NCBI RefSeq assembly: GCF_002310815.1 | Contig: NZ_CP011032.1 | Coordinates: 2,272,001-2,336,000 of the forward strand | DNA: 64,000 nt | DNA from: Pseudoalteromonas tunicata | GTDB taxonomy: Bacteria; Pseudomonadota; Gammaproteobacteria; Enterobacterales; Alteromonadaceae | Reading direction: 5' to 3' | Shown: positions 1 to 15,123 of the stretch, piece by piece | Numbering within the stretch: position 1 is the stretch's first letter | Layout: each line of letters starts with the position of its first letter | Program-made: the position numbers and the translations under genes | The notes under the pieces: generated by a model | Databases searched by the model: none | The model's input: only the letters and a program-made list of their open reading frames with translations | What the model was told of the DNA's origin: nothing

Positions 1-1054
1 TTGCATTGCCCAAGAGATAACTAATAAAAAATAGTAATCCAGTTTGCAATAATAACTGAGTAAACACCTGACGAGGTGTCGCACCGAGTGCCATTTCAAT
101 CGCCAGTTTTTTTTGCTGCTCGGTCACGCGCATAATAAACAAGGCCAATACATTCACTAACGCAATCAGCAGTAATCCAATGGCTGCCAGTAACAGGGTA
201 TGGCTTGTGGATTCACTCTTGCCGTGTAACTGCTCTTTCAAAGACACCAGTTCAAAGCGCACCTCATGATCTTTAAACGGAGTATTGAGGTGATCTTGCT
301 TAAATGTTTGTTGTTGCTGCGGCGTAATCAACTGCGCGGCTTGATTGGCTGAAAACTGATTATTTAGCCGCCCAAGTACTTTTATTTGCGGGCGAATAGC
401 CCCGCTATTTCCTGGCATTAAATCCACCCAGTTACTGGCTAAAAACGGTAAATACACCTCGCTAAAGCGCCCTGGTTGATAAAGTTCAGCTTCTTGGCTT
501 TGCTGTGTTAATACACCCGTAATACGATAACTTTGCTCACGTAAACGAATGGTTGTACCAATCACATCGCTGGCGCCTGCTAATTGGTTTTGCCAAAACG
601 TATAACTCACTACCACTTCATGATTAAACGCATTGCGACTGCTTGGCTCACTAAACGGCCCACCAAGCTCGAACTCCATGCCCATCAATTCAAATAAAGT
701 GGCAAAACCAAAGGTGGCATTTAGCCTTGGGCTTGCCTGCTCAGTGATCATTAAAATATCGTGATAAACCAACGGGCTGGCTAAATCAAACACGGATTCT
801 TGTGCGATATCAAAGGCAGCCACAGCCGATAGTGCATTACTGTAAAATGGCTTATCTTGATGATAAATGTGGCCTTTAACGCTATACAAATGCTCAGCGT
901 GTGGATACGGTAAAGGTTTCACCATTACTTGCAAATATAAGGTGATGGCGGCCATTAACGCGCCTATACTGACCGCTAAAATAAACAGCACATTAAGGCT
1001 AAATACTCTGTGATGGCGTAACGAGCGCCACGCTTGCAGTATCAAATAGCCCAT
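1..1054 (-). CDS. ABC transporter permease, FtsX/MacB type (partial, 3' end off window)
   Basis: Translating the minus strand from the ATG at 1052-1054 gives an open frame that runs off the left edge. It begins with a membrane segment, then KPLPYPHAEHLYSVKG, a periplasmic MacB_PCD-like region with VIGTTIRLREQSYRITGV, and a second membrane helix near LLLAAIGLLLIALVNVLALF. These blocks match the three permeases upstream, so it is a fourth tandem paralogue of probably about 800 residues. Its start shares one base with the stop of the upstream permease (TAATG), which implies translational coupling. The second half cannot be seen. It presumably forms the membrane part of the exporter with the ATPase at 8365-9126. 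Confidence 0.85.
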   Translation of the reverse strand, partial: MGYLILQAWRSLRHHRVFSLNVLFILAVSIGALMAAITLYLQVMVKPLPYPHAEHLYSVKGHIYHQDKPFYSNALSAVAAFDIAQESVFDLASPLVYHDILMITEQASPRLNATFGFATLFELMGMEFELGGPFSEPSSRNAFNHEVVVSYTFWQNQLAGASDVIGTTIRLREQSYRITGVLTQQSQEAELYQPGRFSEVYLPFLASNWVDLMPGNSGAIRPQIKVLGRLNNQFSANQAAQLITPQQQQTFKQDHLNTPFKDHEVRFELVSLKEQLHGKSESTSHTLLLAAIGLLLIALVNVLALFIMRVTEQQKKLAIEMALGATPRQVFTQLLLQTGLLFFISYLLGNA

Positions 1055-3522
1055 TATTTTAGCCCCCTTAAACTATACATTGCCGGGCGAGTAATAAATC
1101 GGCGCAGCGGGGCATAACAGGCCCAGACTTGCACCATCAAAATGAGTGTTAATGTTAATAACCAACTATAACCAAATGATATATTAACTATTAATAGCTC
1201 AGTATTAGAGATTATCAGCATCAAAAAAACGCTTGCAAAGGTAAAACCCAGTAGCAGAGCTTTGCTATTTTCACCCAATAATAACCGCAGTATATCGCGC
1301 CCTTTAGCACCAAGCGCCATGCGTGTGCCCCACTCTAACGCCCGCTCATGCACAGTGAAACTGACCATCGCATACAAGCCAGCGGCTCCAATAAACAAAG
1401 TAAAAATAATCAGTATCAAGGTCAGATAAAACGTCATATTAGATAAAAACAACAACTGAGTTTTGTCTTTTTCAAGGCTTTGATAAGAAAAGAGTTGGTA
1501 CTGTGAACCCAGCTGCCCGATAAGTGTCGCAAGCTCATTGCGGCTCATTGCCTGCTGTTTTTGTTTGAACTTGAGCATAATATTATTACGAGTACCATTG
1601 TCAGGTGCATACAAACGGGCAATTGAGCGAGTTTGATTTGGTAAGACCAAATCCTCAACCACTCCCATTATTCGATAGCTCTGCTCAAACAAGGTAATTG
1701 TTTGACCAAGCACCTCGCCATTTTTTGCCAGCATCTTTGCAAAGGTTTCATTAACGATAACCTTTTTGTCTCGTTGCACTAATTGGTTTTGAGTAAAGTT
1801 ATCGCCGCGTAATAATTTTTGGCCAAGTAAACGAAAATAATCTTCATCAATAAATTTTGTTTCTGGCAAATACGGGGTATTGGCTACATCTGTAATCGAG
1901 AATTGACCAAACCATGCCAAAGGTGACAAAGAAACACTCACATCACTTATTGTTGGCTGCTCAAGTAAAGCTAATTTGAGTTGCTGCATTTGCGCTATAT
2001 TCTCCATCCGACCTAAACCTGATGGATTTTTTGGGCTCAACCTTAACTGATAAAGGCCTTCGACTGGTAAATTACTTTTTGCAAACACCAGTTTGGCAGC
2101 CTGCTCAAAATGACTGATATTCAAACAAATAATGGTTGCGCATAGCGCTATTTGGCTGGTCACTAAACTTGTACGAAGTACTGAATTAATACCTTGGCTA
2201 ACGCCTTTGCCACTACTTTTTAAACTGAAAATAATATGTTTGAAATCAATGCTGCGCGCGCTGATGTAAACAAACCAAAGTGCAATGCTGACTAAAACGA
2301 GCAGCAAAATAACCACGACTTGAGCTGTTAAACGCAATTGTGTCATGCCAGCTAGCCATTGGCCTGCATAGTTGGCGAATAAGTACACTCCTAGGTAGGC
2401 GATTAAACCAGCAAAAATAAACGCTAAAAACAATAAAATACTTAATTCAATCAATAACATTTGCTTTATCGCACTAGGCTGTGCCCCGAGTGAAAGATGA
2501 ATGGCAAATGTACGGTGTTTTGCACCATTATATGCCATCACCAAATTACTGACATTGACCAGAGCAATCAAAAACAATGCTAATGCCGCTATCATAACAA
2601 ACATAGCAAAGCGTTGGCTGGGTCCAAACATGGTCTCTTTTAATGGCGTTTGTTTGATTTTAGTGTGCCAATCTTGATAGTTATTTTGGTTAGCAATCCC
2701 TTGTTTAAATATCTCGTTTAACGCTGCTGAAAAGCTAAACTGCATTTGTGCCGCTTGTGGGTGAGCGACATCGATTTTACTCACCACTTTTATTGCTTCA
2801 TCCGGAGTTGTCCACTGCCCCCAATTCATTTGAATTGACCAGTTAAACCGCCACGGCAAAAAAACGGCTGTTTTTCTACCGGTTTGAAATAACTCCGGCT
2901 CAACAAAATTCTCTGCAACGACACCCACAATAGTATAAGAAACACCACGAAGCTCGATACTCTGGCCAATAATGTCAGGGGTTTGTGACAACTCAGTGTG
3001 CCAAAACTCATAACTAATCAGCGCCTCAGGCAAACTATCATTAATATGCGTAACCGAACTGAAATCACGCCCCAATACCAGTGGTACATCAAACGTACTC
3101 ACCCAATTAGGGCTGACATACACACTGTTTACCCTCGGCGTATTGGCTAACGAGCTGATCACATCTGCAATATAATACGACAAAATCACCTGTTGCTTCA
3201 GTGGTGAAAATGCCGAAGATTCGGTCTTGCCATTAACATTTGGGCTGTTTTGTTGCTCAGTATTTAATTCATACCATGCGTTGGCTGCGGGCAGACTAAA
3301 CTGGGTTGAGATAAGCGCTTGTACTTGATTAAAAATTTGATGCTCTGTAACAAACAGCATTGATTTTAAATCATAATCGAGTGGTTTAAAAAACAACACC
3401 CATGAAATACTCATCAAGGCACCAAGCGCCCCTAAGGTAATTGCTAAACTACTCATTACGGTCATTGCATACATAGGTGCTTTGGCGATGTTCATCAAAG
3501 CTACTTTTAAGGTGTAATTCAT
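1054..3522 (-). CDS. ABC transporter permease, duplicated MacB_PCD/FtsX type
   Basis: This is an 822-residue inner-membrane permease. The order is an N-terminal helix (about 20-45), a periplasmic MacB_PCD-like domain, three or so helices (about 305-425), a linker with LKSSGKG, a second helix-plus-periplasmic unit, and a C-terminal FtsX block with ERALEWGTRMALGAKGRDIL. It ends RPAMYSLRGLK. That makes it a double-FtsX protein, about twice the length of MacB and lacking MacB's own ATPase domain. The linker and tail are shared with the two upstream permeases. Its start overlaps the upstream stop by four bases. The substrate is not evident. Powering by the ATPase at 8365 is inferred from the operon. 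Confidence 0.9.
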   Translation of the reverse strand: MNYTLKVALMNIAKAPMYAMTVMSSLAITLGALGALMSISWVLFFKPLDYDLKSMLFVTEHQIFNQVQALISTQFSLPAANAWYELNTEQQNSPNVNGKTESSAFSPLKQQVILSYYIADVISSLANTPRVNSVYVSPNWVSTFDVPLVLGRDFSSVTHINDSLPEALISYEFWHTELSQTPDIIGQSIELRGVSYTIVGVVAENFVEPELFQTGRKTAVFLPWRFNWSIQMNWGQWTTPDEAIKVVSKIDVAHPQAAQMQFSFSAALNEIFKQGIANQNNYQDWHTKIKQTPLKETMFGPSQRFAMFVMIAALALFLIALVNVSNLVMAYNGAKHRTFAIHLSLGAQPSAIKQMLLIELSILLFLAFIFAGLIAYLGVYLFANYAGQWLAGMTQLRLTAQVVVILLLVLVSIALWFVYISARSIDFKHIIFSLKSSGKGVSQGINSVLRTSLVTSQIALCATIICLNISHFEQAAKLVFAKSNLPVEGLYQLRLSPKNPSGLGRMENIAQMQQLKLALLEQPTISDVSVSLSPLAWFGQFSITDVANTPYLPETKFIDEDYFRLLGQKLLRGDNFTQNQLVQRDKKVIVNETFAKMLAKNGEVLGQTITLFEQSYRIMGVVEDLVLPNQTRSIARLYAPDNGTRNNIMLKFKQKQQAMSRNELATLIGQLGSQYQLFSYQSLEKDKTQLLFLSNMTFYLTLILIIFTLFIGAAGLYAMVSFTVHERALEWGTRMALGAKGRDILRLLLGENSKALLLGFTFASVFLMLIISNTELLIVNISFGYSWLLTLTLILMVQVWACYAPLRRFITRPAMYSLRGLK

Positions 3523-5909
3523 ACCTCTCCCCTTAAGCTTTCAATTGCTGGGCGCACAATAAAACGGCGCAGAGGTAAATACTGTGCAACAGCACTTACA
3601 GTCATCACTAATAAACTACTAATAAAAAAGCTAACCAAATTAAAATCTGTGGCAAACACCAGCAAAGAAACCAGCCAACCAGCACCTAACCCAAGTAGTA
3701 TCGCTTTAAGGCGTTGGCCAAATACACATTGGATAATATCAATCGGCTTTGCGCCCACAGCCATTCGTGTGCCTATCTCATGTTGGCGCATTTGAGTGCT
3801 GACACGAAACACCCCATAAATCCCTAAAGTTGCAATCATTAAGGTAAACAGGCCCACAAATAAAGCGCTTACGAGCAGTAGACGTTCGGTTTGCTGTAAC
3901 TGAAAATACTTATCGCTAAAATGATAAAAATCATCAATCACATAGTCATTATTTAAACGTTTGAGCACCGCAATCACCTCTGATTTTTTAATCGGCCGGT
4001 CTGCTTTGAACAAAAAATCAGTTGTACTTAATGCTGAGGGTTGATAAATGGTAAAGCGGTCATTATCTACTTGTGGAATGACGCTATTGGCAACCACGCC
4101 AATCACCGTAAAAGCGGGTTCTCCCGGTGTGATTCTCATTCCTACCGCAGACCCATTGGGTGCAAGATACTGCGCCAGGTTTTTATCAATAATCATGTTG
4201 TTTGTTTGTAATTGTCTGTCTTGATTATCAAAAAAACGTCCCTCCAATAATGGCCTATCAATCAGATTAAACGACGTTTCGCTGGCAGTATTAATAAACA
4301 GGCTAAAGCGTTGATCAGTGACTTGGTCATGAATGGGCCACCCCCAATAATGAGCAAAGGGCGAACGTGCCTGACTGACCTCTACCATACCTGGAATTAA
4401 CATTAGGGCGTGCTGAAAATCCACCATGTGTTGCGCCCTTTGTTCCTCTGATGGACGCAAAACACCGGCATGTGTAAGCGCTAGGCTGTAGCGCCCTTCT
4501 AATGCAAAACCACTCTTTTGAGTAAGAGCCTGATAGGCCTTTGCTAGTACCATGCTTGCGCCACAGATAATCACAACAGCAACACCCACTTGAATGGCAA
4601 TAACAATCTGTTGCTTACTGGAACTTATTTGTACATTCGTACCTTTTCCTGATTGTTTTAATGCACGATGAATAAGTCTTAAGTTGACTGAAGACCCCCC
4701 ATAAAAACGCATGAACACCGTCATCAATACCAGCAGAACACTCGACAATAACATTGAATAAGGCGTCATTTCGAGTTCACTAGCACGTAAAATAAAGCCT
4801 GAAAAATAACGCTGACAAAGCGCTAATAAACCACTTGATAAAGCTACTGCGCACAAGCCTGCCGTTAACATCAATAAACCAAGGTAAAGGCTATGCTGCA
4901 AAGTAATATCACTTTGTTTTGCACCAACAGCAATATGCACAGCTATGGTATGGTTATTTTGTTGTTGTTTTACTTGCATAAAATTAGCAATATTAACGGT
5001 GGCGATCACTGCCAATCCTAAAACCGCTAAACATAAAATCAGTAAATTTTGAGTATTATCACCCAGTAAAACGTCATTGAGGGGTGTGAGCGTACTTTTA
5101 ATCGACCAATCGTTAAAAAATGGCGTATCACTTAAGTTGTCTTTCCATAATTGGTTCATACGCAGCGTCAAGGTGTCGCCAAGCGATGAATTTACATTTT
5201 GAGGCTCGGCGATTTTAGCCAGCATCGCCAAGGGGGGGCTAATTGAACCCCAAGCGCTCTCCCTTGTTTTATGGGGGTTAAAAGCAAAGGGTAACCACAC
5301 CTCTCTTGGCTTATCGCGATGTAATAAGGGTTCAATAAAATCTTTGCTTATCACCCCTTTAATCTGAAATGAATCACTATACAAGGTAATATATTGCCCG
5401 ATCACATCAGGGGAACCTGCAAATTCGCGCTGCCACAACGCTTCACTAATAAACGCCTCTGGGAGTTGATTGCCAAGGATTAAATCGTTTTCAGAAGTGC
5501 TCATTTTTTGCCCCAGCACCATGGGTATATCCAGCAACGTAAACCACTCAGGGCTGACATAACTGACCATTAATTTCGGTTGATTCGGTAATGAACTTAT
5601 TACTACCTCGTCATAAAAATTCAGTGCAACTGAGCCTATGTCTGCACTTTCACGGTACACCTGCATCATGACTGGGTACGTCCAAGCCCGGTTATCGACT
5701 TTACCGGCATGATTTAGCTGTATTTGCTCAATTTTTACTAGTTTATCTTGCTCTGGATACGGCAGTGGTTTGTAGAGCGCGACATAAATCAATGTTGCCA
5801 CGGTAAATAACGTCGCCATGACTACCGCCATAGTCGCCACAATACTAAAACTCATTAAAGGAGCGCGAGTAATACTCAGCCAAGCTTGTTTTAAAGTATA
5901 AGTATTCAT
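3519..5909 (-). CDS. ABC transporter permease, duplicated MacB_PCD/FtsX type
   Basis: This 796-residue permease has the same double layout: first helix, periplasmic domain (contains SDSFQIKGVISKDFIEP), a central group of helices, the LKQSGKG linker near residue 417, a second periplasmic domain, and a final FtsX block with RQHEIGTRMAVGAKPIDII. It ends RPAIESLRGEV, the same tail as the next permease upstream. Four-base ATGA overlaps at both ends tie it into one translationally coupled operon. It is clearly paralogous to its neighbours, but divergence in the periplasmic parts suggests that the copies have separate roles in a heteromeric complex. Its substrate cannot be read from sequence. Confidence 0.9.
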   Translation of the reverse strand: MNTYTLKQAWLSITRAPLMSFSIVATMAVVMATLFTVATLIYVALYKPLPYPEQDKLVKIEQIQLNHAGKVDNRAWTYPVMMQVYRESADIGSVALNFYDEVVISSLPNQPKLMVSYVSPEWFTLLDIPMVLGQKMSTSENDLILGNQLPEAFISEALWQREFAGSPDVIGQYITLYSDSFQIKGVISKDFIEPLLHRDKPREVWLPFAFNPHKTRESAWGSISPPLAMLAKIAEPQNVNSSLGDTLTLRMNQLWKDNLSDTPFFNDWSIKSTLTPLNDVLLGDNTQNLLILCLAVLGLAVIATVNIANFMQVKQQQNNHTIAVHIAVGAKQSDITLQHSLYLGLLMLTAGLCAVALSSGLLALCQRYFSGFILRASELEMTPYSMLLSSVLLVLMTVFMRFYGGSSVNLRLIHRALKQSGKGTNVQISSSKQQIVIAIQVGVAVVIICGASMVLAKAYQALTQKSGFALEGRYSLALTHAGVLRPSEEQRAQHMVDFQHALMLIPGMVEVSQARSPFAHYWGWPIHDQVTDQRFSLFINTASETSFNLIDRPLLEGRFFDNQDRQLQTNNMIIDKNLAQYLAPNGSAVGMRITPGEPAFTVIGVVANSVIPQVDNDRFTIYQPSALSTTDFLFKADRPIKKSEVIAVLKRLNNDYVIDDFYHFSDKYFQLQQTERLLLVSALFVGLFTLMIATLGIYGVFRVSTQMRQHEIGTRMAVGAKPIDIIQCVFGQRLKAILLGLGAGWLVSLLVFATDFNLVSFFISSLLVMTVSAVAQYLPLRRFIVRPAIESLRGEV

Positions 5910-8326
5910 ACCTCGCCCCTTAAGCTTTCAATGACTGGGCGCGAACAAAATTGCTGTAGCGGTAACAAACTTGCCACAAAAGCCAAGCTTAAGGTAATGA
6001 TAAAACTCGTGGTGATAATAAACACCGAGGCTGAATCAACCACCCACTGATAGCCAAAAGGCTGCCAATAATACGCCATGACTAAACCAAGGGCACTTAA
6101 TCCACACCCCATACTCAGTGCAATACTATTATCTTTAAATACAAGTATGAACAATCGGTTAAGTGGTGCACCCACCGCCATGTGGATCCCAATCTCTGTT
6201 CGCCTTAATGTGACTGCGTAGCGCAATACACTAAACAAACCTAAACCTGTCAGTAATAAGGTCACCACAATAAGCCCAGCACTTATCACTAATGTGCTAT
6301 AAGGGCGAAAGAGTGCTTTTTGACGTTGTGCTGCAAGTGGGGTGTAACTAAACACCGCAAGCCCTGCATCAAGTTGCTGTAATTGTTGATTAAGCAGTGC
6401 TTTGCTGACCGACTGCCCCGCTTTAAATTGGATCAGTAAATCTGATGAGCCTCGTCTGGCACGAAATACTTTGGCTGGCGTTGCACCTTTACCAGGGATG
6501 TCGAGCGTGCGCACCACACCAATTATGGTAAATGCATTTTCAGGCCCCGCAGTCACATCAAAACTGAGTTTTTTGCCAATCGCATTACCGCCAAGCTGCT
6601 GTGCAAACACTTGGTTTATCACCAAATAATTGTCATTTTCACCGTAGTGATCTGGCGTAAAAGACTCACCTGCCACCAGTGTTTGAGCCATTAAATTAAA
6701 ATAATGGGCATCAATTACTTTACCTTTAGGGAGCACTTGTTGCTGTTCACTGAGTTCAATCAACGACCATGTAATAAGGTTATCTTCAAAAGGAGATCGC
6801 GACCTGCTAACTTGGTCAACTTCTGGCAACGCCGAGATTTTTTGCACCGCTTGTTCAAGCAAATTGCGCCGATTATCGCCGCTCAAATGCGTAGCGGTAC
6901 TGATCCTTAAACTGGCCAAATTCGCCACAGGCATCTGCTCGGCGATTAAAACCTCTTGCCAATTTTGCTTGAGCGTGACACTACTCATCGCCACTAAAAA
7001 ACTGGCCACAGCCACCTGAAAAGTTATCATCAATTGCCGAGCAATCGGCCTTACTTGAATACCCGTGCCTTTACCTGATGATTTTAAATGACTTGCCAAG
7101 GTTCGGTAGTGGATCATCTGCATACTCATAGCTGCAAACAACCACGCGAGTACAACACCAATCACCATGATGGCTGCAACCGAAATACCATTAAGCTGTA
7201 TTTCTTGCGCTCTTGGTAATAATACTTTAAAAAAATCGGCCAGTAGGCGCAGCATGCCATAGGCAAAACCCAGCGCAAGCACCGCTGAAATACCCAATAA
7301 CAGGCCCGCTTCAGACAAAAAAAGGCGAAATAACGCGCTTTTTTTCGCACCAATTGCACACATAATAGCGATGACTTGACCACGCTTAACAGTCCGAGAA
7401 ATAAATAAATTACTCATATTCGCAGTGGCAATTATCAACAACCCCAAGACCGCCACCAGCAGCCACACCACGCTCTGCCCTTTGTCACCTAAAATAACGC
7501 CATCAAGGGCGTTGAGCTCAAGGGCAACCTGCCAACCTTTAAAAAACTCAGAATCTGAAACATGTTGTTGCCACACATTATTCACATTGATTGATAAACG
7601 TGCTGCCAGTTCATCTTTATCTGTACCTGCTGGCAATTTGGCAATAAAGTGACTGTCAGAATAACGGTTCCACCAAAAGCTACGGGCTCTTTCTGAGGTT
7701 AAATTAAAATCCCAAGGTAACCAAATTGCAGTTTTGCGCCCCGTTTTTAAAATCTCCGGTTCAATAAACTGCTGCGCAGCCACCCCAATAATTTCAAAAC
7801 TCACCTGATTTATCACTACAGTTTTGCCAATAATGCTGTTATCGCTGGCGAAGTCTTGCTGCCAACTGGTATAACTTAATACCGCAACCGGATGCTGTTG
7901 ATTGAGGCCATCACGGGCATCAAAAACACGCCCCAAATGCATTTTCACTGCAAATAAATCAAACCATTCAGGGGTAATAAACGCGGTATTTTTAACCGGT
8001 AATTGCGCTAAAGAATCAACAATTTGTTCGCCATAATAGACCAATGCGACTTGCTCAAATACGTCATGATTTTGGTACAAATGGATAAGTGCTTGGTAAT
8101 TAAACGCACGAGTATTAATTTCTCCTGTTTGGTCAATTTGTACATATTCAGCTTTCACTAACCGCGCCTGATCTGGGTAAGGCAATGGTTTATAAAGCAG
8201 TAAATACGCCATTGTTAGTACCGTGATCAATGCTCCAAGCGTTAAACCTAAAGTACCAATAACCGCACCACTAAATAAGGGAGCCTGTTTTAAACTCTGC
8301 CAAGCAGCCTGAAGTTGATATATCAT
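5906..8326 (-). CDS. ABC transporter permease, duplicated MacB_PCD/FtsX type
   Basis: This 806-residue protein is the first permease after the ATPase gene. It has an N-terminal helix (about 18-45), a MacB_PCD-like periplasmic region with VSFEIIGVAAQQFIEPEIL, central helices, the LKSSGKGTG linker near residue 419, a second periplasmic region and a terminal FtsX block with RRTEIGIHMAVGAPLNRLF. It ends RPVIESLRGEV. An AAGGA Shine-Dalgarno sequence lies about nine bases before the ATG, unlike the downstream copies, which rely on overlapping stops and starts. A 38-base gap separates it from the ATPase gene. The role in export is inferred from family and context. Confidence 0.9.
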   Translation of the reverse strand: MIYQLQAAWQSLKQAPLFSGAVIGTLGLTLGALITVLTMAYLLLYKPLPYPDQARLVKAEYVQIDQTGEINTRAFNYQALIHLYQNHDVFEQVALVYYGEQIVDSLAQLPVKNTAFITPEWFDLFAVKMHLGRVFDARDGLNQQHPVAVLSYTSWQQDFASDNSIIGKTVVINQVSFEIIGVAAQQFIEPEILKTGRKTAIWLPWDFNLTSERARSFWWNRYSDSHFIAKLPAGTDKDELAARLSINVNNVWQQHVSDSEFFKGWQVALELNALDGVILGDKGQSVVWLLVAVLGLLIIATANMSNLFISRTVKRGQVIAIMCAIGAKKSALFRLFLSEAGLLLGISAVLALGFAYGMLRLLADFFKVLLPRAQEIQLNGISVAAIMVIGVVLAWLFAAMSMQMIHYRTLASHLKSSGKGTGIQVRPIARQLMITFQVAVASFLVAMSSVTLKQNWQEVLIAEQMPVANLASLRISTATHLSGDNRRNLLEQAVQKISALPEVDQVSRSRSPFEDNLITWSLIELSEQQQVLPKGKVIDAHYFNLMAQTLVAGESFTPDHYGENDNYLVINQVFAQQLGGNAIGKKLSFDVTAGPENAFTIIGVVRTLDIPGKGATPAKVFRARRGSSDLLIQFKAGQSVSKALLNQQLQQLDAGLAVFSYTPLAAQRQKALFRPYSTLVISAGLIVVTLLLTGLGLFSVLRYAVTLRRTEIGIHMAVGAPLNRLFILVFKDNSIALSMGCGLSALGLVMAYYWQPFGYQWVVDSASVFIITTSFIITLSLAFVASLLPLQQFCSRPVIESLRGEV

Positions 8327-8364: not shown

Positions 8365-9126
8365 TTAAATAGCCGTTTGAATAACATCATGCTGTGGTTG
8401 ATTTTGTTGCACTTCACCTAAAATCTCACCGTCGAGCAATTTAAGTTGGCGCGTGGCCATATCTGCATAACGTGGGTCGTGTGTCACCATACAAATAGTG
8501 GTACCTGCAAGGTTGAGCTCTTGCAGCACTTGCATCACTTGGTCGCCCGATTTTGAATCAAGGTTACCGGTTGGCTCATCGACCAGTAATACCGCAGGCT
8601 CCGCGACAAGGGCACGAGCAATCGCAACCCGTTGTTGTTGCCCACCAGAGAGCTGGTTGGGTTTATGACTCATACGGTGACCTAAACCTACTTTTTCAAG
8701 ACAGGCTTTTACTTTACGTTGAATGGTTTCTTTATTTGGTTTGCTGGCATGGTAGCGCAGCGGTAAGGCCACATTATCAAATACACTGAGTTCATCTATT
8801 AAATTAAACGACTGAAAAATAAAGCCTATTTTCTCATTTCGGATTTCAGCCGCTTGATTCAACGTCAGCGACGATACGTCTTTATCTTCAATAAAATATT
8901 CACCACTACTCGGTAAATCAAGTAAACCGAGCAATGACAATAAAGTGGATTTACCGCAGCCTGATGGCCCAGAAATTGATAAGTACTCGCCGCGATAAAT
9001 GGTTAAATTAACATTGCGCAGGGCGTACGTTTGCAACTCTTCAGTTTCAAACACCTTACTGATATTGCGCATTTTTATGACAATTTGTTGTGGTTCAGTG
9101 CGTGCGTTATCGCGTGTATTGTTCAT
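8365..9126 (-). CDS. ABC transporter ATP-binding protein (MacB/LolD-like)
   Basis: This 253-residue nucleotide-binding subunit carries all core motifs: Walker [10 protein letters not shown] (about 53-61), Q-loop FIFQSFNLI, signature LSGGQQQR, Walker [13 protein letters not shown] and the switch histidine in MVTHDPRYA. The GNLD after Walker B is typical of the MacB/LolD/FtsE group that partners FtsX-type permeases in mechanotransmission. It is the only ATPase in the operon, so it probably serves all the downstream permeases. An AAGGA ribosome binding site precedes the ATG. The gene sits 69 bases after the membrane-fusion gene, as in other MacA-MacB-like export loci. Confidence 0.93.
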
Positions 9127-9195: not shown

Positions 9196-10446
9196 TTAAT
9201 AAATGTCGAGCTCGGGATGCGTCTGCGCCAAATTAGTTAAATCCGAAATAATAAGTTGACTGTTTAATTCAAGCCCCTGTTTTATTTCTATAAAACGGCC
9301 AGCTTGACGACCAAATTCAATATCGGTCAACAATGCTTTATTTTGCGCAGCATCAATGCGATATAACTGCGCTTGGCTATTTGACTTAATATTGGCTGGG
9401 CGTTCTATGTAACGAACATTGGTTAAACTTGCGACTAAAATATTGGCGTCGATATTAAGCTGAGGCCGCGCGTTTTCAGGCAATTGTTCTGGTAAACTCA
9501 CTTCGACTTCAACTGTGTTATTAATCACTACAGGGTTAATGCGCGTTACCTGCCCCATCACTTTTGCCAAGCGCGTATCGACTTCAACCGCTTGACCTAC
9601 GGCCACTTGGTCGACCTGATTTTGTGACACATTAATTAAGGCAATTAGCTCCTTGGTTGAGCCAATCAGCGCAATTTCTTGCCCCGGAGCTAAGCTTTGA
9701 CCAAGCTCCACTGCTAAATTTTGCAGCACGCCTGCAAAGCCAGCCCTCACCGTAAGGCTGTCGAGTTTTCGCTTTGCCGTATTCACTAACCCTTGCTGTT
9801 GATTAATCCATTCTAATTGAATATTTTCGGCTTCTTGATGCACCGCTTTTAGTTGCACTGCTCGCTGCTTGGCAATCTCTAAACGTTGTTTTAACTGCGC
9901 TTCATTTAAAATACTGCGCTGATAATTAAGCGATGATACAACGCCTTGTTTCATTAATGTGGTTTCGGCCGCGAGATTCAATTTAGCGTTTTCGTATTCG
10001 GCGTTAATTTGGGCAAAGGTTGCGGTTTCGTTAAGCACTTCACGGGTATTATTCAGTGTTAACTGACGTAAATTGGCGCGCAACTTGGCCAGCTCCTGTT
10101 TCGCATTATCAAGTTGTTGCTGGAGCTCAGGGTTGTCTAGGCGCACAATCACACTGTCGGCTGCGACAATTGCGCCAGGTTTTAGCACAATTTCCTGCAC
10201 CGTTGCGGCCGTTTTAGCGCTCAGCAGCTGTTGGCGATGAGACTTTAAAATGCCATAACCCGAGACCAATACATCAAGATCACCTTGCTGCACCTGCGCC
10301 ACAATAATTTGCGAACGCGCAACACTCACTTTGTTGCTCTTGAGCTGTTGATACAAAACCGTTAATACAATTATTACAGCCACTGCCAGCAATGCTTGTT
10401 GCCACAACGCTAAACGATTTACTACTTTTGTTTTTACTACATCCAT
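9196..10446 (-). CDS. HlyD/MacA-family periplasmic adaptor (membrane-fusion protein)
   Basis: A 416-residue adaptor that would link the inner-membrane permeases to an outer-membrane channel. It has one N-terminal membrane anchor (about 14-31, LALWQQALLAVAVIIVLTVL), a first lipoyl half (TVQEIVLKPGAIVAADSVIV), a long Gln/Leu/Ala-rich coiled coil (about 105-225), the second lipoyl half (LDSLTVRAGFAGVLQNL) and a beta-barrel region. No TolC-like gene is in the window, so the exit duct must be encoded elsewhere. It is the first gene of the operon. A sigma-54-type promoter lies about 50 bases upstream, while its own ribosome binding site is weak. The substrate is unknown. Confidence 0.9.
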   Translation of the reverse strand: MDVVKTKVVNRLALWQQALLAVAVIIVLTVLYQQLKSNKVSVARSQIIVAQVQQGDLDVLVSGYGILKSHRQQLLSAKTAATVQEIVLKPGAIVAADSVIVRLDNPELQQQLDNAKQELAKLRANLRQLTLNNTREVLNETATFAQINAEYENAKLNLAAETTLMKQGVVSSLNYQRSILNEAQLKQRLEIAKQRAVQLKAVHQEAENIQLEWINQQQGLVNTAKRKLDSLTVRAGFAGVLQNLAVELGQSLAPGQEIALIGSTKELIALINVSQNQVDQVAVGQAVEVDTRLAKVMGQVTRINPVVINNTVEVEVSLPEQLPENARPQLNIDANILVASLTNVRYIERPANIKSNSQAQLYRIDAAQNKALLTDIEFGRQAGRFIEIKQGLELNSQLIISDLTNLAQTHPELDIY

Positions 10447-10496
10447 CGCAGTTTCAACTCATTTTTGTCACTGAAGGTATCTATGTCAGAACACTA

Positions 10497-10512
10497 AGCG
10501 ATACTCGTGCCA
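10497..10512 (-). promoter_or_regulatory. Sigma-54 (-24/-12) promoter for the exporter operon
   Basis: Read on the minus strand the site is TGGCACGAGTATCGCT. It matches the RpoN consensus TGGCACG-N4-TTGCW at every defined base except one T to C in the -12 box, with the required GG/GC spacing. Transcription would start near 10486, leaving about 40 bases before the adaptor's ATG at 10446. The divergent neighbour encodes a sigma-54 activator, which supports the call. Not tested; it is a sequence match only. Confidence 0.8.
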
Positions 10513-10580
10513 AAATTAAAACCATTTAAAATCATGACGTTAAATAATTTACAATGTTATTAACCATATTTTTATTTCAT

Positions 10581-10727
10581 TTTCGGACCAATTAGTTCAG
10601 TTTTGAACTGCGTGATACGTTTTTGTGCCCAACAGAGCGGTTTAAAGCGCGGCACAACTAAAACGTGACGTAAAAAAAGCGGCGCCTTATCATCCCAAAA
10701 TCGGACTTCTGTAGTTCGATTTCGGAC
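10581..10727. promoter_or_regulatory. Putative enhancer sites for the sigma-54 activator
   Basis: TCGGAC occurs three times here: at 10583-10588, 10701-10706 and 10722-10727. The first two are followed by AGTTC (10594-10598 and 10713-10717), giving the imperfect dyad CGGAC-N5/6-AGTTC. A perfect dyad AGTTCA-N4-TGAACT lies at 10594-10609. These repeats lie about 60-215 bases from each of the two flanking -24/-12 promoters, the usual distance for upstream activator sites. Binding by the adjacent regulator is inferred. Confidence 0.55.
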
Positions 10728-10788
10728 AAGGTGACTCAATTTAGTGTTACTCTATCACTAACACACTGAAAAATTAGCGTTAAAATGC

Positions 10789-10804
10789 TGGCATACTTAT
10801 CGCT
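10789..10804 (+). promoter_or_regulatory. Sigma-54 (-24/-12) promoter for the regulator-kinase operon
   Basis: TGGCATACTTATCGCT matches TGGCA and the -12 GC with exact spacing, and shares the TCGCT -12 box with the divergent exporter promoter. The predicted start is near 10816, about 28 bases before the ATG at 10844. It would make the regulator autoregulated through the shared upstream sites. Confidence 0.65.
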
Positions 10805-10843
10805 TTATCATAACGGTTAGCACAGCAATAACTTGGAAAAACA

Positions 10844-14373: not shown

Positions 14374-14661
14374 TTGGTTTTGACTGACGTAAATTTAACT
14401 CAAGGTGATGTTTTAGACCGTTTGTGGCATTACCAAAACCAATGTATTACTTCAACGGCAAACACTCTCACATCACAAAGCTGACACTATACTATTTACT
14501 ATTGCTTATTTATCTAGTGGCTAGGATCAGTCGCGGACTCAGCCATTGTTATCAAACAAATACCGCTGCTTATCACCGTAGTTGACCTTTCATCATTAAG
14601 TTTAAATATTGGAACGTAATTAAACGATACTCAAGTCATCTTCTTGAATCGAGAAATTATT

Positions 14662-15123
14662 ATGAACACAACTTCAACTCAATCTGGCTATTATCAAGCT
14701 GTTTCGGACACGCACAATGCCGGTTTTATGCGCAGAGCCCTAGCCCACCTTATTGATGGTATCTTATTAAGTACGTTCTTAGCGGCCTGTTTTATTGTGT
14801 TTTACGGTGATAGCCAATGGCTCACTTTACAAAATTCTTGGAGCGTAAATTATATATTTTATGAAGAGTTATTACCCTTGGTGCTTGCGGTAGCTTTTTG
14901 GGTAAAAAAAGCGGCTACACCAGGTAAAATGGTGATGAATACCAAAGTGGTTGACGCAAATACTGGCTTAAACATATCCACCAGCCAAGCCTTATTACGT
15001 TACATAAGCTATTTTATTTCAGCATTACCGCTTGGTTTAGGTTTTATTTGGATTTTAATTGATGAGCAAAACAGAGCATGGCATGACTTGATTGCTGGTA
15101 CTGTTGTGGTAAAGCAAGCGTGA
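14662..15123 (+). CDS. RDD-family membrane protein
   Basis: A 153-residue inner-membrane protein. The RDD signature is near the N-terminus (FMRRALAHLIDGILL: R, then the D of HLIDG), with helices at about 30-50, 65-85 and 115-140, and the family's closing motif QNRAWHDLIAGTVVV. The frame is open back to a TTG at 14644, but the ATG at 14662 fits the family start better. RDD proteins are poorly characterised; some have been linked to ion exchange. It is followed by a strong bidirectional terminator. Confidence 0.85.
   Translation: MNTTSTQSGYYQAVSDTHNAGFMRRALAHLIDGILLSTFLAACFIVFYGDSQWLTLQNSWSVNYIFYEELLPLVLAVAFWVKKAATPGKMVMNTKVVDANTGLNISTSQALLRYISYFISALPLGLGFIWILIDEQNRAWHDLIAGTVVVKQA

Follow-up and report, generated by a model that had tools for sequence, protein, structure and literature searches.

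Paired operators mirrored about divergent sigma-54-type promoters between a MacB/ADOP-type exporter operon and its putative NtrC-type activator in Pseudoalteromonas tunicata

On the evidence of its DNA, a histidine kinase and NtrC-type response regulator of Pseudoalteromonas tunicata very probably switch on both a MacB/ADOP-type exporter and the regulator's own operon from separate, mirrored enhancers, as a coupled, self-amplifying switch. The 397-bp spacer at 10447..10843 of the window (the whole 64,000-nucleotide stretch analysed) holds two -24/-12 elements, each oriented toward a gene, and the operator pair, IHF-like site and promoter on one side are the mirror image of those on the other side (Table 1). 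Directly seen are the elements themselves, the fixed geometry in which they stand, their conservation and the fact that they accompany exporters of this kind. In the proposed scheme, the kinase would phosphorylate the regulator, which would bind the two 16-bp palindromes of each promoter, situated some 77 and 97 bp upstream of its -24 box. Assisted by DNA bending at the IHF-like site, it would then open sigma-54 RNA polymerase at both promoters, that of the exporter and that of its own operon, and the outcome would be a coupled, self-amplifying switch. Binding, RpoN dependence, the part of IHF, the sign of the feedback, the signal and the substrate are those components of the scheme that we infer. 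Since each promoter has a matching operator pair, the activator probably turns on the pump and itself.

Table 1 Features of the spacer and of the flanking module (positions in the window unless a locus is given)
Feature	Position	Strand	Remarks
Exporter-operon -24/-12 promoter element, TGGCACGAGTATCGCT	10497..10512	-	Sequence; kept in 8/8 orthologs found
Regulator-kinase-operon -24/-12 promoter element, TGGCATACTTATCGCT	10789..10804	+	Sequence; kept in 8/8 orthologs found
IHF-like site between operators and exporter promoter, 8/9 specified bases	10530..10542	+	Match to general IHF consensus; putative function
IHF-like site between operators and regulator promoter, 8/9	10759..10771	-	Match to general IHF consensus; putative function
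Exporter-side operator, proximal, 10/12 to AGTYCRN4YGRACT	10574..10589	-	77 bp upstream of exporter -24 box; includes TCGGAC 10583
Exporter-side operator, distal, AGTTCAGTTTTGAACT, 12/12	10594..10609	.	97 bp upstream of exporter -24 box
Regulator-side operator, distal, 10/12	10692..10707	+	97 bp upstream of regulator -24 box; includes TCGGAC 10701
Regulator-side operator, proximal, AGTTCGATTTCGGACA, 11/12	10713..10728	+	76 bp upstream of regulator -24 box; includes TCGGAC 10722
NtrC-type response regulator, 453 aa	10844..12205	+	Receiver, AAA+ sigma-54 interaction domain, Fis-type HTH
Histidine kinase, 456 aa	12205..13575	+	Two N-terminal hydrophobic segments, very short loop
HlyD/MacA-type periplasmic adaptor, first gene of exporter operon	9196..10446	-	Domain and family profiles
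ABC ATPase, MacB/LolD type	8365..9126	-	Domain and family profiles
MacB/ADOP-type duplicated permease 1	5906..8326	-	Domain and family profiles
MacB/ADOP-type duplicated permease 2	3519..5909	-	Domain and family profiles
MacB/ADOP-type duplicated permease 3	1054..3522	-	Domain and family profiles
Permease 4, extends beyond window	1..1054 (L031:8625-11054)	-	Domain profiles

Sigma-54 promoters are characterised by TGGCAC/TTGCW-like boxes at -24 and -12 with GG-N10-GC spacing. The two spacer elements are of this type and share the GG-N10-GC spacing, their common -12 box being TCGCT and not TTGCW. A preliminary description of this DNA had placed two exactly spaced elements at these positions and given them a TCGCT box in common, and the sequence confirms both statements. 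The pattern TGGCAYN5TYGCW matched twice in the 64-kb window, exactly at the two spacer elements. Shuffled 64-kb sequences gave a mean of 0.49 matches and reached two in 7 of 100 shuffles; therefore, the number alone is only mildly unusual. The whole genome, which carries a single rpoN gene, contained 27 matches, whereas the reversed control gave 12. Match counts by themselves would thus leave chance open; it is the conservation that, at the level of sequence comparison, rules chance out. The elements stand above chance because they lie in one shared spacer, face their genes and are conserved with changed linkers.

Among 108 genomes of the genus, nine, including that of P. tunicata, had an ortholog at an E-value of 1e-172 or better. 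In all eight other genomes the gene is divergent from an adaptor-ATPase-permease operon and both -24/-12 elements are kept, with linker bases that differ from those of the window. The exporter element reads TGGCACGTGTTTCGCT in seven orthologs and TGGCATGTGTTTCGCA in one, and the regulator element reads TGGCATAGAAATCGCT in all eight. In each of the nine genomes the exporter element had the higher score, 16.3-17.5 compared with 13.5 for the regulator element. A search of relatives, which the preliminary description had proposed, thus found both elements and the whole layout conserved in 8/8 orthologs.

The operator of the spacer is one 16-bp palindrome, AGTYCR-N4-YGRACT, present upstream of each promoter as a pair 20-21 bp apart, i.e. 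two helical turns. The dyads lie at a conserved distance and helical phase, roughly -75 to -79 and -95 to -100 relative to the -24 box, as expected of an enhancer. Repeated TCGGAC and AGTTC dyads at activator-site distance had been described before; their presence and distance were borne out, but they are halves of one 16-bp operator, not separate dyads. As a hexamer TCGGAC is unremarkable, with 14 copies in the window where 8.9 are expected (three of the 14 in the spacer). Exact AGTYCRN4YGRACW occurs at six sites in the 4.96-Mb genome, two of them in this spacer, and with one mismatch the palindrome is rarer genome-wide than its reversed control (132 + 114 versus 250 + 240 matches). The ORFs near C1:2926641 and 3002559, considered as possible extra targets, showed no match to the module proteins. 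An alternative motif, TCGGACT-N5-AGTCCGA, was rejected as the primary operator, for it corresponds to a distal half-site overlapping the proximal palindrome. Its best site in the genome lies in the spacer (one mismatch), all others among the matches listed having three; the 16-bp form is preferred because it explains both sides and the relatives.

The IHF-like sites have the same offset (-30) and the same orientation relative to the promoter on both sides. Matches of 8/9 or better were found in 36 of 51 promoters, near-identical copies being counted, compared with 21% of base-shuffled sequences. The spacers of relatives contain perfect palindromes such as AGTCCGATTTCGGACT. On the regulator side, the proximal palindrome is kept at 11-12/12 and 77-79 bp in seven of the eight orthologs and is displaced in the eighth (L043), where about 195 bp are inserted between the regulator-side operator pair and the regulator promoter. 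This insertion is a natural test of distance tolerance.

The palindrome AGTYCRN4YGRACT was fixed on the clade of the window and only then applied to other modules. The survey covered 134 loci (54 + 80), of which 94 combined an adaptor gene and sufficient upstream sequence with a promoter score of 10.5 or more. After removal of near copies 82 were left, namely 34 non-clade modules with a regulator identity of 54.5% or higher, 42 modules at greater distance and members of the clade. In the 34 near-relative exporter promoters, a set from which the score threshold had removed modules without a recognisable promoter beforehand, the palindrome stood 75-79 bp away from the -24 box at 10/12 or better in 30 and at 11/12 or better in 25. 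At 95-99 bp, 20 of the 34 had a copy of 9/12 or better. Nine control windows of the same width gave 0-1 (10/12) and 0-3 (9/12) of 34, and 11/12 or better occurred anywhere in 180 bp in only 6 of 458 unrelated genes at the same loci. The exceptions lacking the 75-79 bp palindrome were L081, L119, L082 and L092. The regulator recognition helix is similar in many near relatives among the matches listed, with exceptions such as L048 and L087. In the more distant modules (regulator less than 54.5% identical), the palindrome stood at 75-79 bp in 3 of 42 only, so that other subfamilies probably use other operators.

Among non-redundant modules outside the clade (85, one more having been dropped for its short upstream sequence), 60 had a -24/-12 score of at least 12 in the interval -200..+60 relative to the adaptor start; of the unrelated genes at the same loci, 12 of 392 did so. 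In 43 of these 60 modules the element lies at -75..-40. The score near the adaptor was below 12 in the remaining 25, and 11 of them have a TTTCA -12 box as their top match. Related modules were found in Pseudoalteromonas, Colwellia, Thalassotalea, Rheinheimera, Alishewanella and other genera. The elements offer an unusually clear, conserved and testable cis-regulatory code for widespread, little-described marine exporter modules.

The genome of P. tunicata itself encodes 15 strong sigma-54-activator genes, and eight neighbourhoods were examined (the window, L032-L036, L039 and L040). At least seven adaptor-ATPase-permease-regulator-kinase modules are present (the window, L032, L033, L034, L035, L036 and L040); the neighbourhood of the L039 activator contains no exporter module. 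The six other modules have -24/-12-like elements before the adaptor with scores of 12.4-15.8, except L036 with only 10.6. None of their adaptor promoters has a good copy of the palindrome (8-10 of 12). Therefore, the operators look module-specific and the modules insulated.

Divergent sigma-54 promoters under one NtrC-type regulator are a known arrangement. ZraR is reported to control the divergent sigma-54 promoters of zraSR and zraP (PMC4987338), and zraP and zraSR are listed as divergent elsewhere (PMC8743547); the layout of the spacer is therefore of a known kind, with regulator and target operons behind sigma-54-type promoters in one spacer. As in E. coli and Salmonella, the promoters would serve the regulator's own two-component operon and an envelope-related target. 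The target of ZraR is a periplasmic zinc chaperone, whereas here it is an ABC exporter, and the present kinase, unlike ZraS, has no recognisable periplasmic sensor domain. By profile, the proteins fall outside the ZraSR family (regulator 283 of 760 bits, kinase 77 of 479 bits). A design resembling the one known from E. coli is found here in a large, little-studied pump family. For orp1/orp2 of Desulfovibrio vulgaris (DVU2106), divergent sigma-54 promoters, palindromic activator sites and intervening IHF sites are described, and the targets are put down to septum positioning (PMC3897727). That system differs in that its activator gene is transcribed by way of sigma-70 and subject to negative self-control, and in that its targets are not an exporter.

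The other likenesses are more partial. The top NCBIfam match of the regulator is PrsR of the XrtA/PEP-CTERM system (366 bits, below the 503-bit cut-off), and the kinase reaches 58 of 300 bits against PrsK. Distant matches to the darobactin exporter DarBCD came from the ATPase, from the adaptor and, among the three permeases scanned, from two, far below the equivalog cut-offs (250 of 375, 69 of 450 and 21 of 700 bits). The cluster around VC1522 of Vibrio cholerae may be similar. Among the titles and opening parts of abstracts listed from an open-licence library, there was no account in which sigma-54 controls MacB/ADOP exporter modules of this type.

The preliminary description had assigned one enhancer region to both promoters. 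The divergent promoters, the activator and the operators stand, and so, probably, does the predicted loop, but the sequence does not show one enhancer common to both promoters, because each promoter has its own pair at a fixed distance; there would be two enhancers, regulator-side and exporter-side, possibly cross-acting. A version in which the strong regulator-side pair serves both promoters, the exporter-side pair being a relic or of minor importance, is possible if somewhat unlikely. It would suit the eight orthologs, whose exporter-side copies match at 7-9 of 12 compared with 11-12 of 12 for the regulator-side proximal site (seven at the usual distance, one displaced), and because of this weakness the exporter in those relatives may rely on the pair of the regulator side. 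The regulator-side sites are 152-185 bp from the exporter box, a distance within the known reach of sigma-54 activators of this kind. The window itself, however, has strong copies on both sides (12/12 and 11/12), placed at canonical offsets common to the two, the exporter-side AGTCCG half-site at -77 to -79 is kept in 8/8 orthologs, and related modules typically have their own pair at about -78/-98, all of which argues for an enhancer on each side.

It is quite improbable that only the exporter promoter depends on sigma-54 while the regulator operon is transcribed mainly by sigma-70 and repressed from the bound sites, in the manner of the orp regulator of D. vulgaris, an activator gene reported to depend on sigma-70 and to be under negative self-control (PMC3897727). 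Sigma-70-like matches in the spacer are weak (four versus 1.2 expected); one of them (10758-10786) stops 58 bp short of the regulator start, where it overlaps the regulator-side IHF-like site, which would fit such a promoter, but it reaches only 9/12, and the regulator-side -24/-12 element is identical in 8/8 orthologs and comes with the operator and IHF-like geometry. A chance origin of both -24/-12 elements, as random matches in AT-rich spacer DNA, has a negligible probability. The shuffled sequences, of which seven in 100 reached two loose matches per 64 kb, would tolerate it, but the relatives refute it in practice, with conservation in 9/9 genomes despite changed linkers and with 30 of 34 other modules showing the same fixed geometry. 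Activation of both operons through sigma-54-type promoters, each from its own operator pair, is accordingly the reading that we retain.

The sigma-54-type promoter of the regulator marks the clade of the window. With a score of at least 12 at 15-160 bp as the criterion, it is present in 9/9 members and absent in all 82 modules of three other layouts (33/33 regulator-first, 48/48 exporter-first and 1/1 other divergent). A fourth, Thalassotalea-type layout (two of its four modules are named Thalassotalea) has it in three of four. In these three (L076, L133 and L134), a sigma-54-like element also precedes the regulator, apparently an independent gain, and the region upstream of it lacks the palindrome (8-9 of 12). 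In a tree of 117 regulators built by a quick method, the nine form one clade (SH-aLRT 99) within a group of 51 rows, 33 of which are ordered regulator-kinase-exporter; this group itself has a support of 88 and is drawn open. In this sample a single change on the tree suffices to produce the divergent layout with its second promoter, and we infer that this layout is a derived state. Self-amplification may be common and reached differently, since exporter-first modules would make the regulator by read-through from the promoter of the exporter. The modules provide a natural comparison of self-regulation, as the regulator may lie upstream, may follow as a downstream gene of the exporter operon or may have a sigma-54 promoter of its own. 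The tree also contains a clade of 12 regulator rows with a kinase and no adaptor gene detected nearby (L049, L089, L090, L091, L100, L141, L147, L159, L175, L176, L181 and L182), most of which adjoin genes of about 283, 650-685 and 937-954 aa.

The flanking genes agree with the earlier reading of a sigma-54 activator on one side and an exporter with multiple permeases on the other. The regulator contains PF00072, PF00158 and PF02954, the domain set of the NtrC type including the sigma-54 interaction domain, and its D54 and GAFTDA loop are invariant across the nine clade members. The start of the kinase gene overlaps the regulator stop by one base, and alignment and hydropathy revealed no periplasmic sensor domain in the kinase. 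On the other flank, FtsX and MacB_PCD domains together with a separate ATPase and an adaptor identify a MacB/ADOP exporter. TIGR03434, the ADOP subfamily, is the top NCBIfam match of each of permeases 1-3, at scores (385, 321 and 308 of 622 bits) that place them outside the subfamily. Four successive permease genes follow one adaptor and one ATPase, compared with a single permease gene in seven of the eight fetched orthologs and two in L043; the run in the window is apparently a lineage-specific amplification.

The absence of a sensor domain bears on how the signal may be received. BceS of the Firmicutes BceAB-BceRS system is not known to have a sensor domain, and by alignment and crude hydropathy the present kinase shares this Bce-type trait. 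BceR is an OmpR-type regulator; here, in contrast, an NtrC-type regulator and sigma-54-type promoters are combined with an exporter that has a periplasmic adaptor. In both cases a MacB-superfamily transporter is paired with its own kinase, and the Firmicutes kinase is reported to need the transporter to sense (PMC5985334). Crude hydropathy of 115 neighbouring kinases gave two segments in 81 and three in nine, with a first loop of 25 aa or less, and one segment in 25. A first loop longer than 25 aa was thus found in 0/115, a count that retains near copies and includes modules without an exporter. Because kinases of exporter-less modules were counted in the same test, the likeness to transporter sensing is a lead only. 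The broader suggestion of a large Gram-negative family of insulated switches, in which the MacB/ADOP exporter would, in the Bce manner, be the sensor for a kinase that has no sensor domain, each NtrC-type regulator would have its own operator code and pass the signal through a fixed two-site geometry to a sigma-54 promoter, and the cassette of the present clade would have been duplicated in mirror image, is unlikely as it stands. If it is true, mirror duplication of operator pair, bending site and promoter would have turned a simple switch into a self-amplifying one.

Several further features were noted around the module and elsewhere in the genome. An RDD-family membrane protein is encoded downstream of the kinase (window 14644-15123). 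To the left of the window, a tyrosine recombinase (L031:4842-5813, plus strand; PF13495 and PF00589) stands beside a run of small minus-strand ORFs, and this region may be a chromosomal integron. At C1:1168338-1173333, one 16-mer has at least 27 matches at multiples of 60 bp, the pattern of a long tandem-repeat gene or array.
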